A stretch of DNA of 43,949 nt from a virus. The DNA lies in IMG/VR virus record IMGVR_UViG_3300013104_000034, positions 1-43,949 of that record; one strand, 5' to 3'. Positions 3,304 to 25,903 of the stretch are shown here, in pieces. Positions within the stretch are counted from its first letter, which is position 1. Every line of letters begins with the position of its first letter. The position numbers were made by a program, and so were the translations under genes. The notes beneath the pieces were generated by a model. That model was not told the DNA's origin and searched no databases. It saw only the letters and a list, made by a program, of their open reading frames with translations.

Positions 3304-3462
3304 ATCGGCTGGGGATTACTGGGGAAGGCACTGTATAAACGCTCTAGAAACCCCAATTTCCCGGTTGTTTCGGTGGTTATTCCCCGTTTGCAATTGACGC
3401 GCCGCCCGTAGGGTGTGCTTATTGCCATTGTGGTGCCAGCTAATCTTTCACTGGAGCACCAC

Positions 3463-3594
3463 ATGAAAAACTTCTTGAAAATCAAACACGGTCAGACCGA
3501 AGGCGAGGCCGGCGGAACTCTAGCCGTTGTTCTCCTAGCCGTGATGTTCTTGGCGGCTATATTCGCACCGATCATCGCGTGGGCGGTTAGGTGA
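3463..3594 (+). CDS. 43-residue single-pass membrane peptide
   Basis: A basic, polar N-terminus (MKNFLKIKHGQ) is followed by a Gly/Ala-rich hydrophobic helix (about residues 17-41, LAVVLLAVMFLAAIF...), so it is a likely inner-membrane microprotein. GGAG lies 7 bases before the ATG. A TTGACG at about 3395, with a loosely spaced CTTATT, could be its promoter. It is divergent from the MazG operon. No family is recognised; a holin-like or toxin-like role is possible but unsupported. Confidence 0.5.
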   Translation: MKNFLKIKHGQTEGEAGGTLAVVLLAVMFLAAIFAPIIAWAVR

Positions 3595-3639
3595 GTTCGA
3601 CTGTCTTGCCGCTACAGCTTGGACTAGTGAAAATGCCAT
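3535..3639 (-). CDS. Possible 34-residue ORF antisense to the membrane peptide
   Basis: AAGGAGA lies 5 bases before an ATG at 3639 and is itself preceded by ACCACCCCAC, resembling the early-leader motif of this prophage. The frame encodes 34 mostly polar, Arg-rich residues and then stops, lying antisense to the plus-strand membrane peptide. The start signals are good but the peptide is not recognisable, so it may be a relic leader whose gene has been lost. Confidence 0.25.
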   Translation of the reverse strand: MAFSLVQAVAARQSNSPNRPRDDRCEYSRQEHHG

Positions 3640-3715
3640 CGTTTCTCCTTAGTGGGGTGGTCGTATCTAGGATCAGAATTGGTTCAGTTTTCGTCAGAAC
3701 GTCGGGGATAGCGCG

Positions 3716-3964
3716 ATGAAGATCACACAATCAAAGTTCAACGGTTCGCTCGCCGAGATCGTCGTGGAAGATGAACCTGGCCGCTCAGGCCTCATCGTTC
3801 AGTTCGAAGCATCCGGTCCTTTACAGAGCGACGCACAAACCGACCCTGTCGTCTTTGCAACTGACCTATCCATCGAGGAAATTAGCAAACAGTGCAAAAT
3901 CTCCGACGCAGAGGCTCGAGCGATGGTGGTCACATTTTTACTCAAGGACGGCTTGGTGGCCTAA
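3716..3964 (+). CDS. Small acidic protein of unknown function
   Basis: 82 residues. The N-terminal half looks like beta strands; the C-terminal part (DLSIEEISKQCKISDAEA) resembles a short helix-turn-helix or helical hairpin. GGGGA lies 8 bases before the ATG. It converges on the metallophosphoesterase gene, and the two stop codons overlap by 4 bases. No family is recognised. Confidence 0.6.
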   Translation: MKITQSKFNGSLAEIVVEDEPGRSGLIVQFEASGPLQSDAQTDPVVFATDLSIEEISKQCKISDAEARAMVVTFLLKDGLVA

Positions 3965-21686: not shown

Positions 21687-24059
21687 TTACCCCAACTTCA
21701 CGTTTCGTTTTTGAGCCGATCGCACAGCCGCCTCAACACGGCTTTGGAGCTCGCCCTGCATCTTGGCCAGCGCCTTTTCCTGCCTCGCGACGGCTTCAAC
21801 AGATGCGCCGCGGTTATCGACGACTGGATTGAAGTTGACGACGACACCGGCAGATTGAGCGGACATGGATCGCAAGCTCGGCACACTCGGCACGGAAATC
21901 CCTACCGGGCCGCCGTTTGCGTAACCCTTAAGATTGCGCCGCATTGCCTCCATGGCCGCAGGACCGCCGGCAGCTTTGACGGCCGCCTGGTCGAACACGT
22001 ACTCGCCTTTGTGGACGACGCCTGCGGGCTGATATTTGCCGCCGTCGCCGGTGTAGCCGCCATCGGAGAAGCCCGATCTTGCGGTAGGAACCGGCCCTGT
22101 CATTGGAAGAGAAGCAAACCCGCCGCCACCAAACAGGCCGAGGAAGCTACTCAGGAGGCCGCCACTGCCGCCAGCTGCACTGTTTACCTTGAACAAGCTG
22201 GCGAGCACATCGTCGAGAAGCGCATCTGCAATGCGGCTTAGCGCGCCAGCAAATGCGTCCGCGGCACTCTCGCCATGAATCAGGTCGTCGATAAAGCCGC
22301 GCGTTGCATCTCTCGCGACGTTGTTCCATTCATTCAGCTTCTGCTGTTGCTCTTGCGCTTGCCTAAGCGCCTCAGACTGCCGAGCATATGCCGCAGATTC
22401 CTGCTCGATTGCGTCAATCTTGTCGGGCGAAAGCGTGATGCTTTCCAGATCCTTCTCGCCCTTCTTGCGGGCCTCTTCTCGAAGGTCGGCGAGTGCCTTC
22501 TGCTCTAGGTCAAGAGCAGTGCGGCGCTTGGTCTGAGCCTCGTTAGACAGGCCTATTAGGCTCATCTCCTGGCGAAGCGCTTCGGTTCGATCGCGAACTG
22601 CCTGAAGGTCTTCCGCGAAGCGATCGGATGCAGTCTTTGTCGGCGCCCTCGCCCGCTTTGGTGTACCGAACCCTCTATTTTTGTCCGTATCCAGGTCAGA
22701 TGGGCGTCGATCTGGTGTCGGGCCGTTATCCGGTAGGGGAAACTGAGTTCCTTGGATTGTGGCATCTGCGCCGAATTGTGAATCCTGCTGGCCTGCTCCG
22801 CGCCACGTCCTCGGATCATTGATCCTGGAGGTTGCTACAGACGTTGCGTCGTTGACTTTCTGGACGCTGTCAGCGGCCGACAGCGCAGCTGCCGATAGCG
22901 TGGAAAAGTATTTGGCGAACTCAGTGAGTGCAGGAATGCCGGTGTTGTTTATGGCCGCACTGAGGGCCGACTGCACACGGTCCACATCTTCAGTCTGCGC
23001 CTTGCCTTCTTCGGCAGACTTCGCAAAGTCATTGAATGCTGACTGGAGGTTCTTGATAACGTCAGCTTCTTCACCTGCAGACTGAAGTTGCGAGACCAGA
23101 TCAGCAATGGTGGCGCGTGTACTCTCGACCTCTTTGCGGACGTCAGCGAGCGTGTTGGTATTTACAATGTCAGCGCCCTTGGTTAGGTCGGCGTTGTCCT
23201 GCGCACGCTTCAACTGATCAGCGTAATCGCGCAAGGCAGGAACCGCATCGCCCCACCGCTCGGCTACGGCAGCAATCAGCGCAGCCTGCTCCTTGAGCAC
23301 CTCTGCTGACTTATCGCCCTCACTCATTATGGTGGAGAAGTACTGAAATGCCGCCGTACCTGCGGCAATGACACCGATTGTCACCAGAGACAGCGGAGAG
23401 ATAACGGAAGCGAAAGCGGCTGCAAGACCTTGCCCAACTCCCTGCCCGCTATCCTTTATCTGCTGTAGAACGGCCGAAAGCTGCGTGCCTTGCTGCAAAG
23501 CTATCTGGATAGGCGACATGCCCATCGCTGCCGTCACGCCGATGTCCTGAAATTGGGCTGCGATGTTCGCGGTATTGAAGCTGTTGCCGCTACTCGTTGT
23601 AACTGTTGCCTTCAGTGCGGCGTTACGGCCCTTGATGGCTGCAGTCGACGCAAGGGCGGCCTGTCGCTCTCGTTGAATTGCCGAGGCCATCTCATTAGCA
23701 GAAATGGCGCCGGCAGCATGTGCCTGCCGGATCTCGGCGACGGCGTTCCTATAATTAGAAATTGTAGCGAACAACGGGCTGTATTTGGCGCGGAGGCGAT
23801 CAAGCTCTTTCTGCTGATCAGCGAGAACCCCGTTCCATTCTTTTGCTGCCGTCGTCCCAATACCCACCATACTGTTGATGCGATCCTGCATCGACGTGGT
23901 GAGCGAATTGTTGATCGACTTCCCAGTCGCGGCAAAACGTTTCTCAATGCCACTGGATGCCGCGCCTACGTCCGACACCAGCCTGTTTAGGGCACGCTTT
24001 ACGGTTGCAAGGTCGGTGCTGATTGAGATAATCAGATCATCATTATTATTACCGGCCAA
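21687..24059 (-). CDS. Tail tape measure protein
   Basis: 790 residues. Long, mostly helical and low in aromatic residues, with coiled-coil stretches (VESTRATIADLVSQLQSAGE, RDRTEALRQEMSLIGL), central hydrophobic segments (FASVISPLSLVTIGVIAAGT), and a C-terminal phage-tape-measure block with FSDGGYTGDGGKYQPAGVVH and GEYVFDQAAVKAAGGPAAME. This C-terminal signature is typical of lambda-like tape measures that set tail length and are ejected with DNA. By the usual 0.15 nm per residue its length suggests a tail of roughly 120 nm. Confidence 0.93.
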   Translation of the reverse strand: MAGNNNDDLIISISTDLATVKRALNRLVSDVGAASSGIEKRFAATGKSINNSLTTSMQDRINSMVGIGTTAAKEWNGVLADQQKELDRLRAKYSPLFATISNYRNAVAEIRQAHAAGAISANEMASAIQRERQAALASTAAIKGRNAALKATVTTSSGNSFNTANIAAQFQDIGVTAAMGMSPIQIALQQGTQLSAVLQQIKDSGQGVGQGLAAAFASVISPLSLVTIGVIAAGTAAFQYFSTIMSEGDKSAEVLKEQAALIAAVAERWGDAVPALRDYADQLKRAQDNADLTKGADIVNTNTLADVRKEVESTRATIADLVSQLQSAGEEADVIKNLQSAFNDFAKSAEEGKAQTEDVDRVQSALSAAINNTGIPALTEFAKYFSTLSAAALSAADSVQKVNDATSVATSRINDPRTWRGAGQQDSQFGADATIQGTQFPLPDNGPTPDRRPSDLDTDKNRGFGTPKRARAPTKTASDRFAEDLQAVRDRTEALRQEMSLIGLSNEAQTKRRTALDLEQKALADLREEARKKGEKDLESITLSPDKIDAIEQESAAYARQSEALRQAQEQQQKLNEWNNVARDATRGFIDDLIHGESAADAFAGALSRIADALLDDVLASLFKVNSAAGGSGGLLSSFLGLFGGGGFASLPMTGPVPTARSGFSDGGYTGDGGKYQPAGVVHKGEYVFDQAAVKAAGGPAAMEAMRRNLKGYANGGPVGISVPSVPSLRSMSAQSAGVVVNFNPVVDNRGASVEAVARQEKALAKMQGELQSRVEAAVRSAQKRNVKLG

Positions 24060-24112
24060 GTCGGTGTCCTAACGTGAAAAGGCCCGCCAGGAGCGAGCCG
24101 AAAGGGATGGAT

Positions 24113-24559
24113 ATGCCCAAATGCAAACGGTGCGGTTCGGACTATTATCTGGGCGGTAAGGACGGTCACTGCGTTGACTGCGAGGAAGTGCTCGCGAAGA
24201 GCGATGGCGACGCAAAAAAGCAGTCAATTATCATGACGACGTCAATCGACGTGCCAAATCGACAGGTTGAGAGCGTCATATCGATAGTAGCGTCGGAAGC
24301 CGCATTGGGCATGAGCATTTTCAAAGACGTGGCCAACAATTGGCGGGACTTTGTGGGTGGTCGTGCAAACGCTTCCCAAGCCTCACTAAAAGAGGCACGT
24401 CTCGCATGTTTGGATGGCCTTAGGTCAGAAGCCTATGAGGTCGGAGCGGACGCCGTCATCTCTGTTGACCTGGATTACAATCAACTGACGACCGGCGGCA
24501 CCGGAGGCATACTCTTTGTCGCGGCGACGGGTACGGCTGTTAAGCTAAAGCCAGCATAA
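24113..24559 (+). CDS. YbjQ-like protein with N-terminal zinc ribbon
   Basis: 148 residues from the ATG at 24113, which has AAAGGG 6-8 bases upstream. Residues 3-24 form a C-x2-C ... C-x2-C ribbon (CKRCGSDYYLGG, HCVDCEEV). The remainder matches the YbjQ / UPF0145 family: DVPNRQVESVISIVASEAAL, EARLACLDGLRSEAYEVGADAVISVDLDYN and a Gly-rich end. YbjQ is a conserved bacterial protein of uncertain function. It is an opposite-strand insertion between the tape measure and tail chaperone genes, so it has its own promoter and is likely expressed in the lysogen. It is paired with the next lipoprotein gene. Confidence 0.8.
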   Translation: MPKCKRCGSDYYLGGKDGHCVDCEEVLAKSDGDAKKQSIIMTTSIDVPNRQVESVISIVASEAALGMSIFKDVANNWRDFVGGRANASQASLKEARLACLDGLRSEAYEVGADAVISVDLDYNQLTTGGTGGILFVAATGTAVKLKPA

Positions 24560-24575
24560 TATCTTTGGGGGTACC

Positions 24576-24908
24576 ATGAAAATAGCGATGGCAATGGCGG
24601 CCTCAATGGCCGCAGTCCTTACGGGCTGCACCAAAATGGAGCAGTACTATCCAAACGGGCAAGTCGTCGAGATTGACGGCATCGAATTCTCAGTCTCACC
24701 CATGGGCAACAAGGCTGGCTCCTACAAGGCGATGCCGAACAATCCAAAAGACCAGTCATTCCTGATGCTCGATCCGATGGTTTGGGTTCGGAACACTAAA
24801 GCGATCGAAAAAGCTACCGGATGCAGCGTCTACCGCGAAAGCGTGAAGAATCATGAGAACACGACCTTCGCCGCGGTCGACTGCTCAGCTAAGCCGAACC
24901 CGGCTTAG
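24576..24908 (+). CDS. Small lipoprotein, possible exclusion/immunity factor
   Basis: 110 residues. The N-terminus (MKIAMAMAASMAAVLTGCTK) is a signal peptide with lipobox LTGC, so Cys18 would be lipidated. The mature part has two cysteines (TGCSVYRE and VDCSAKPNP). GGGGG lies 5 bases before the ATG. It lies 16 bases after the YbjQ-like gene on the same strand. Phage lipoproteins encoded as cargo often block receptors or DNA entry (for example Llp or Cor types); this is only a hypothesis here since the sequence is not recognised. Confidence 0.7.
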   Translation: MKIAMAMAASMAAVLTGCTKMEQYYPNGQVVEIDGIEFSVSPMGNKAGSYKAMPNNPKDQSFLMLDPMVWVRNTKAIEKATGCSVYRESVKNHENTTFAAVDCSAKPNPA

Positions 24909-24909
24909 C

Positions 24910-25469
24910 CTAACCACCATACTTCTTGATCAACTCGTCCATCTCGGCGTCTGACGGAGGAGCCACGGCTTTCTTGCCGCCGTTCGCTTCGGCCTTGCCC
25001 TTCACCGCAAGAGTGAACTCGGTCAAGCTAGACGCCCAGAATATTCCTGGTGTCCAGCCGAGGCCGCCGAATGCGATCTTTTGCCAGTCGCGCCAAGGGA
25101 ATGGTTCTTCTACGCCGCCTTTAGAGCGGCTTCCCCGTTTCCCTCGTCTTCCTCATCAAAATGATGGGACAACGCCTCAGAGATCGCTTTGGCAACAGCG
25201 CCAAAGTGCTTCAGCTTCAATGCACTGATGGCCTTCACCTTGTCGCCCCGCACGGTAAGCAGATCGAGAGCGGCCACGGTAGCAGCCGGCTCGACGCCCG
25301 ACAGGCGAAGGAACAAATCGGACATACTTTTGCACGACAGGCGCGAAGACACGGCAGCAAGGCCACCCATCTCAGCGACGATGACCAGCGGTTCCTTGCC
25401 GACCCACAGGCCGACCTCCCCCCGAGCTCCGTTTACTTCCAACGGAAAGGGTTTTTCAGCATCAGCCAA
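24910..25469 (-). CDS. Tail assembly chaperone fusion made by -1 frameshift (gpGT-like)
   Basis: Upstream frame 25469-25137 (111 codons) continues, after slipping back one base at GGGAAAC, into the frame 25137-24913 (75 codons), stopping at the TAG at 24912-24910; the predicted fusion is 186 residues. The downstream part has the Phage_TAC_3 / rcc01693-type signature: PFPWRDWQKIAFGGLGWTP, GIFWASSLTEF and DAEMDELIKKYGG. It has no start codon of its own: the frame is closed by a TGA just before the heptamer and contains no ATG, GTG or TTG before the conserved segment. This is the lambda gpG-gpGT strategy, in which the ratio of short to long chaperone controls tail assembly. That the site works has not been shown. 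Confidence 0.8.
25110..25469 (-). CDS. Tail assembly chaperone, short form (gpG-like, GTA gp10-type)
   Basis: 119 residues. The pattern is typical of Phage_TAC_11 / gene-transfer-agent tail chaperones: PLEVNGARGEVGLWVG, then helical DLFLRLSGVEPAATVAALD and a C-terminal acidic stretch FDEEDEGNGEAALKAA. It lies directly downstream of the major tail protein gene, as in lambda. Frame-0 translation ends at the TAG at 25112-25110; the heptamer GGGAAAC lies 9 codons before the stop. Confidence 0.8.
   Translation of the reverse strand: MADAEKPFPLEVNGARGEVGLWVGKEPLVIVAEMGGLAAVSSRLSCKSMSDLFLRLSGVEPAATVAALDLLTVRGDKVKAISALKLKHFGAVAKAISEALSHHFDEEDEGNGEAALKAA
25114..25143 (-). promoter_or_regulatory. Programmed -1 ribosomal frameshift site
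   Basis: Minus strand: heptamer G GGA AAC (25143-25137) in the correct phase, a 6-nt spacer GGGGAA, then a 5-bp hairpin GCCGC / GCGGC with loop TCTAAAG (25130-25114). The heptamer fits the X XXY YYZ rule and differs by one base from lambda's GGGAAAG. Confidence 0.78.
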
Positions 25470-25471
25470 AA

Positions 25472-25903
25472 TTACACCTCCGCGACGAATGCAAGAACAC
25501 CAGCAGCAACGAACGTGGCCGTGAATTCCATATTGCCTTCCATTTCGCCGCTGAACTCGAATTCAGAAACGAACCAAGGGCCGGTGTAAGTACCAAGACC
25601 GGGAACGATTACCTTGGCGTTGAACTTCGTGGCGTCATTGACGTGGGTCATGAACGCTGTGTTGGAGGCGCTCTTCACGAACTTGCCGGAGCCCGAGAAC
25701 GTGCGGTTCTTGATGCCAGGCTCCGCAGTTTTCTGCGGCGTATTCGCTGGATTGACGCAGTCCGTGATAGTCGTATCGACTTCATTTGCGGACATATTGA
25801 AACTGCGGGTCGTCAAACCGCACAGATTCGAGAAGACTTCGGGAGTTTCGCCGTCACCAATCTGGATGAGCAGCGTACGACCAATCTGTTGACCGTCGGC
25901 CAT
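25472..25903 (-). CDS. Major tail protein
   Basis: 143 residues, beta-rich: MADGQQIGRTLLIQIGDGE, then the STANEVDTTI-like segment (SFNMSANEVDTTITDC) and SEFEFSGEMEGNMEFTATFV. This is the Phage_tail_2/TP901-1-type tail tube subunit, as in gene transfer agents and many alphaproteobacterial siphophages. The gene order (DUF3168 protein, this, chaperones, tape measure) supports it. Confidence 0.85.
   Translation of the reverse strand: MADGQQIGRTLLIQIGDGETPEVFSNLCGLTTRSFNMSANEVDTTITDCVNPANTPQKTAEPGIKNRTFSGSGKFVKSASNTAFMTHVNDATKFNAKVIVPGLGTYTGPWFVSEFEFSGEMEGNMEFTATFVAAGVLAFVAEV

Follow-up and report, generated by a model that had tools for sequence, protein, structure and literature searches.

The window analysed here is a whole stretch of 43,949 nucleotides recorded as a virus in IMG/VR (IMGVR_UViG_3300013104_000034); it comes from a rhizobial phage, and we claim no gene transfer agent (GTA) status for it. 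On its minus strand the genes run in the order tail tube, gene 1, frame 2, tape measure. The major tail (tube) protein is encoded upstream of gene 1 at 25472..25903 (PF06199, 77 bits; phrog_1407), and the tape measure protein, the expected client of the chaperones, is encoded downstream at 21687..24059 (phrog_8892, 702 bits). Between them sit two overlapping open reading frames with a -1 relation, as in the G/GT pairs of lambda-type phages. Gene 1 (25110..25469), which would encode a gpG-like tail assembly chaperone of 119 aa, starts with TTG at 25469, carries GGAGG 8 nt upstream of this start and ends with TAG at 25112-25110. Frame 2 is open from 25152 to 24913, in the -1 frame relative to gene 1. 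Two plus-strand genes lie between the pair and the tape measure gene and look like cargo genes. One (24074-24559) encodes a protein of the YbjQ family (PF01906), possibly containing a zinc ribbon; the product of the other (24576-24908) is small and lipoprotein-like. A tblastn search over related loci located the YbjQ-family gene in 27 of them and the lipoprotein-like gene in 10.

On the minus strand, the junction of the two frames reads GAT GAG GAA GAC GAG GGA AAC GGG GAA GCC GCT CTA AAG GCG GCG TAG. An earlier note on this DNA had pointed here to a -1 frameshift site, with an in-phase G GGA AAC nine codons from the stop and a 6-nt spacer, and the sequence bears this out. The slippery heptamer G GGA AAC (25137..25143) stands in the X XXY YYZ phase of gene 1, its AAC lies nine codons ahead of the gene 1 stop, and the spacer GGGGAA (25131..25136) separates it from a stem-loop. 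The hairpin described in the same note is also present, yet the GCCGC/GCGGC stem, given there as 5 bp, is in fact 6 bp long. Folding places GCCGCU-CUAAA-GGCGGC at 25114..25130, with arms at 25130-25125 and 25119-25114, one U-G pair and a 5-nt loop, starting 6 nt 3' of the heptamer. Past the heptamer, the -1 frame reads CGG GGA AGC CGC ... and remains open to 24910. A slip at this site would join residues 1-111 of gene 1 to a T-like extension of 75 aa (24910..25137), giving a predicted fusion of 186 aa. Scanning of the whole open frame 2 found no ATG, GTG or TTG ahead of its conserved domain, and the note had likewise given this frame no start codon of its own; the first such codon is a TTG located 86 nt beyond the gene 1 stop, within the domain.

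The predicted products resemble tail assembly chaperones. Frame 2 passes the cut-off of Phage_TAC_6 (PF09550; 30.5 bits against a cut-off of 23.4), with 40 of the 58 profile positions covered. With matches allowed up to E = 1, no other Pfam family was reported for frame 2, and the Phage_TAC_3 domain proposed earlier was not matched. For the rcc01693 type named alongside it, the match to the NCBIfam model TIGR02216 is weak (21.2 bits) and below the curated cut-off of 56.1. Gene 1 falls in phrog_13724 (136 bits) and has no Pfam match, GTA-gp10 (PF11836, Phage_TAC_11) included. Profile comparison of the gene 1 family with GTA g10 gave a probability of 92.5 (E 5e-7, 43 columns), and the g10 of a Hyphomonadaceae GTA, which lies in a genuine GTA head-tail cluster, was retrieved directly with the gene 1 alignment; the sequences indicate a distant homology between gene 1 and GTA g10. 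Among the solved structures listed as matches of a predicted gene 1 model (pLDDT 82.8), just two reached Z of at least 2, YqbN (3klu) and the HK97 tail assembly chaperone (2ob9), both of them tail chaperones and both weak (Z 2.9-3.2). Likewise, Foldseek with this model returned several viral tail assembly chaperones, with weak scores (E 0.02 and worse). The structural matches of the model are weak yet mutually consistent. For the fusion, a sequence search returned no solved structure.

Synonymous resampling of the last 20 codons of gene 1 gave a chance of ~0.036 of such a heptamer in the window. The heptamer is thus not very improbable in a single sequence, and conservation must carry the weight. 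We collected relatives from viral contigs, one-per-species bacterial genomes and two Rhizobium phages, and counted 111 with an intact junction, 43 of them non-redundant (<85% nucleotide identity). This comparison, which the earlier note had proposed as a check, shows that the in-phase heptamer is kept in 111/111 relatives and in 43/43 non-redundant ones. GGGAAAC is by far the most frequent form (101 relatives), followed by AAAAAAC (6), GGGAAAA (3) and AAAAAAA (1). The gene 1 stop lies anywhere from 10 to 70 nt beyond the heptamer start. The codon preceding the heptamer varies as well (GAG, CCG, GTG, ACG, GCG, TCG or CAG, and CAA or CCA with A-type heptamers), and in all 111 relatives its final base is the one that the heptamer requires. 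A single locus among the close relatives, prophage L028, was set aside, with foreign DNA inserted at the heptamer (~3325-3723). The insert breaks the junction, abolishing the predicted frameshift, and encodes an apparent transposase OrfA (IS3 type, judged by eye).

Could a conserved Gly-Asn merely happen to be written GGA AAC, by chance or through constraint on the protein? Gly-Asn is nearly invariant in gene 1 of the relatives, and the single-sequence value given above would be compatible with such an origin. However, GGA accounts for only 30 of the 327 Gly codons (9%) elsewhere in gene 1, and relatives with Lys at either position still form a heptamer: those with Gly replaced write A AAA AAC with the matching preceding base, and those with Asn replaced keep GGGAAAA. 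None of the 111 relatives has GGC or AAT at the heptamer, which in practice refutes this explanation, and we consider it very unlikely. Even less credible is slippage during transcription rather than translation. Runs of six to seven A occur in a few relatives and might permit it, but the window's GGGAAAC is no homopolymer, and the same mixed heptamer, followed by a stem, is found in almost every relative. A sequencing error, or a pseudogene, could also split one gene into two frames; this is equally hard to credit and is refuted by independent sequences, the same arrangement being found in isolate genomes, prophages, metagenomes and two named Rhizobium phages.

The stem is conserved along with the heptamer. 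Of the 43 non-redundant relatives, 42 have a stem with its 5' arm starting 5-7 nt past the heptamer, compared with a mean of 14/43 and a maximum of 22/43 in dinucleotide-preserving shuffles. Its 3' arm is either of a short-loop type, to which the window belongs, or of a long type made by back-pairing of the frame 2 codons for PWR (e.g. GCCGCCAAG with CTTGGCGGC in L106); in L068 the long-form stem extends to 13 bp. Covariation in the short-loop subset did not rise above controls because four of the six short-loop pairs are invariant, and the evidence for the stem rests on its presence at a fixed spacing in 42/43 relatives with two alternative 3' arms. We also considered a Shine-Dalgarno-like stimulator upstream of the heptamer; a trinucleotide match occurs in 21/43 relatives versus ~11 in shuffles, which is too weak to claim.

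Frame 2 might instead be expressed as a separate T-like protein, by termination and reinitiation or from an unusual start codon. Such expression apparently occurs in Rhodobacteraceae, where 43/47 of the -1-related pairs have an ATGA or GTGA overlap, and several relatives of the phage, not the window, have an ATG slightly past the gene 1 stop. For the window we regard it as improbable: no ATG, GTG or TTG precedes the frame 2 domain, and reinitiation would leave unexplained the 100% conserved heptamer, its alternative forms and the stem at fixed spacing. In GTA pairs, moreover, heptamer and start are nearly mutually exclusive (see below). Pairs that lack the heptamer and have a normal start, which the earlier note had held to count against slippage, do exist, as in the Rhodobacteraceae GTAs with their prevailing ATGA overlap, but solely in distant GTA lineages; none occurs among the relatives of this phage.

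Together, the retention of the heptamer, the stem at fixed spacing, the lack of a usable start and a gene 1 model whose solved-structure matches, though weak, are all tail chaperones support the -1 frameshift reading. Judging from these sequence features, programmed -1 ribosomal frameshifting almost certainly yields two tail assembly chaperones, a 119-aa G-like and a 186-aa GT-like protein, from one initiation site. From the observed phase, conservation, stem and homology we infer the following course. Most ribosomes would finish gene 1 at its stop and release the G-like protein. A minority would pause at the hairpin 6 nt downstream of the heptamer, slip back one base from G GGA AAC to GGG AAA, and read on in the -1 frame as CGG GGA AGC. 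By analogy with lambda, the slipped ribosomes would amount to a few percent and would make the GT-like fusion with its Phage_TAC_6 domain. By the same analogy, the G part would coat the tape measure protein, the T part would recruit the tube protein in a low, fixed proportion, and neither part would be retained in the virion. This reading settles the annotation of the phage as one G/GT pair rather than a gene and a fragment.

As a phage feature the arrangement is ordinary, being the G/GT mechanism of lambda. A conserved frameshift in tail genes of dsDNA phages was described by Xu, Hendrix and Duda (2004; cited by PMC5009743 and PMC10885494), and PMC8601537 states that it is usual in phages of R. 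capsulatus. In lambda, most ribosomes make G and a few percent slip to make GT; G binds the tape measure and T recruits the tube (reviewed in PMC5009743). The locus in the window shares with lambda G/GT its position between tube and tape measure genes, the -1 relation, a heptamer near the end of G and a startless T part. It differs in sharing no detected sequence family with the G or T of lambda, in having a stem 6 nt 3' of the heptamer, and in that gene 1 belongs to phrog_13724 with a distant relation to GTA g10. The heptamer of lambda itself is GGGAAAG. The pre-tape-measure chaperones of the Caulobacter phages phiCbK and Colossus have AAAAAAC and GGGAAAC, respectively (PMC3556154). These are also alphaproteobacterial phages, compared here by heptamer alone, and the two main heptamers of the window's family had thus already been reported in them.

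The Rhizobium phages RHph_Y3_1 (MN988490) and RHph_Y3_56_1 (MN988502) encode a predicted fusion ~52% identical to that of the window, with the same heptamer, spacing and gene order; unlike in the window, their frame 2 has an internal ATG. The RHph_Y3_1 record annotates two separate genes, the second from an ATG past the gene 1 stop, and the RHph_Y3_56_1 record omits frame 2. In the public records for L042 (3366-3554), L043, L294 and L295, the second chaperone is given an internal start as a separate gene, or is omitted.

The earlier note had linked this phage pair to GTAs, in which it took the two chaperones to be usually described as separate genes. A 2024 paper indeed describes them as tail chaperone 1 and 2 (PMC11409702), and RcGTA g10 (pfam11836) is accompanied by a second tail chaperone gene, g10.5/g10.1 (PMC11409702, PMC9765227). 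RcGTA g10/g10.1 has the same two protein families as the window (gene 1 distantly), the same gene order and usually the -1 relation; unlike in the window, the second gene of Rhodobacteraceae mostly starts by an ATGA/GTGA overlap with the gene 1 stop and lacks a heptamer. The proposed link holds and goes further: the PF09550 cut-off is exceeded by frame 2, gene 1 is distantly related to GTA g10, and many GTA pairs carry slippery heptamers. The picture among GTAs is mixed, as those of Rhodobacteraceae, the RcGTA family, mostly have the ATGA overlap. A literature search among open-licence papers found no report of a g10/g10.1 frameshift in GTAs.

We surveyed the junction in Alphaproteobacteria using PF09550, PF11836 and TIGR02216, and classified 200 distinct pairs. 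These come mostly from GTA clusters and partly from prophages, in genomes that are partly related; GTA or prophage status was judged from neighbouring genes for L069 only and by GTA-family match for the others. R. capsulatus was represented by relatives whose tail tube proteins share 79-80% identity with Rcc01691. Of the 200 pairs, 161 have the second frame at -1 relative to the first. A heptamer was scored when gene 1 contained an in-phase XXXYYYZ within its final 60 nt, and a start when ATG or GTG preceded the domain. An in-phase heptamer is present in 53/67 pairs without a start versus 7/94 pairs with one (Fisher p ~1e-21); in control windows further upstream in the same genes it occurs in 13/483. 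Tree-based independent contrasts yielded only 4 supported pairs, although the state changed 20 times along the best tree, and were underpowered, so we compared pairs below 60% identity, among which a heptamer is present in 22/29 without a start versus 2/28 with one (p ~1e-7). Since the two are nearly exclusive, heptamer and own start look like alternative routes for expressing the g10/g10.1 pair.

The commonest heptamers in the surveyed pairs are GGGAAAG, AAACCCT and CCCTTTC, the last two being candidates by the XXXYYYZ rule. In Caulobacterales, GGGAAAG is present in all five pairs that lack a start before the domain. Where the PFPW motif of frame 2 overlaps gene 1, CCCTTTC lies within this motif, and Pro-Phe is written CCC TTT in 14/17 pairs with PFPW overlapping gene 1 versus 3/20 with PFPW past the stop (p 6e-5). 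These patterns suggest that many alphaproteobacterial GTAs probably use programmed -1 frameshifting at GGGAAAG, AAACCCT or CCCTTTC, that Rhodobacteraceae mostly use a stop/start overlap with the two frames in that same relation, and that fused and split forms are interchangeable. The phage pair represents a known mechanism, and the GTA signals are the part that deserves specialist follow-up. If many GTAs keep the frameshift, domestication would have preserved control of the G:GT ratio; in pairs whose second gene has acquired a start, the fusion has probably ceased to be obligatory. The contrast between fused and split pairs would then allow a direct test of what tail assembly requires, the fusion protein itself or just a ratio of the two domains. 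In many genomes the start of GTA g10.1 is probably misplaced by automatic annotation.

Neither start nor heptamer was scored in 14 pairs, including that of the Agrobacterium pusense GTA. In some GTA pairs of this kind (L117, L224 and L217, Agrobacterium pusense among them), which have no ATG or GTG and no strict heptamer, gene 1 ends with CCC TGA or CCT TGA, possibly another type of slip at the stop codon. In several GTAs, L133, L135, L144, L149 and L215 among them, CCCTTTC lies inside the PFPW codons at the 3' end of gene 1, sometimes with a TGATG stop/start just downstream.
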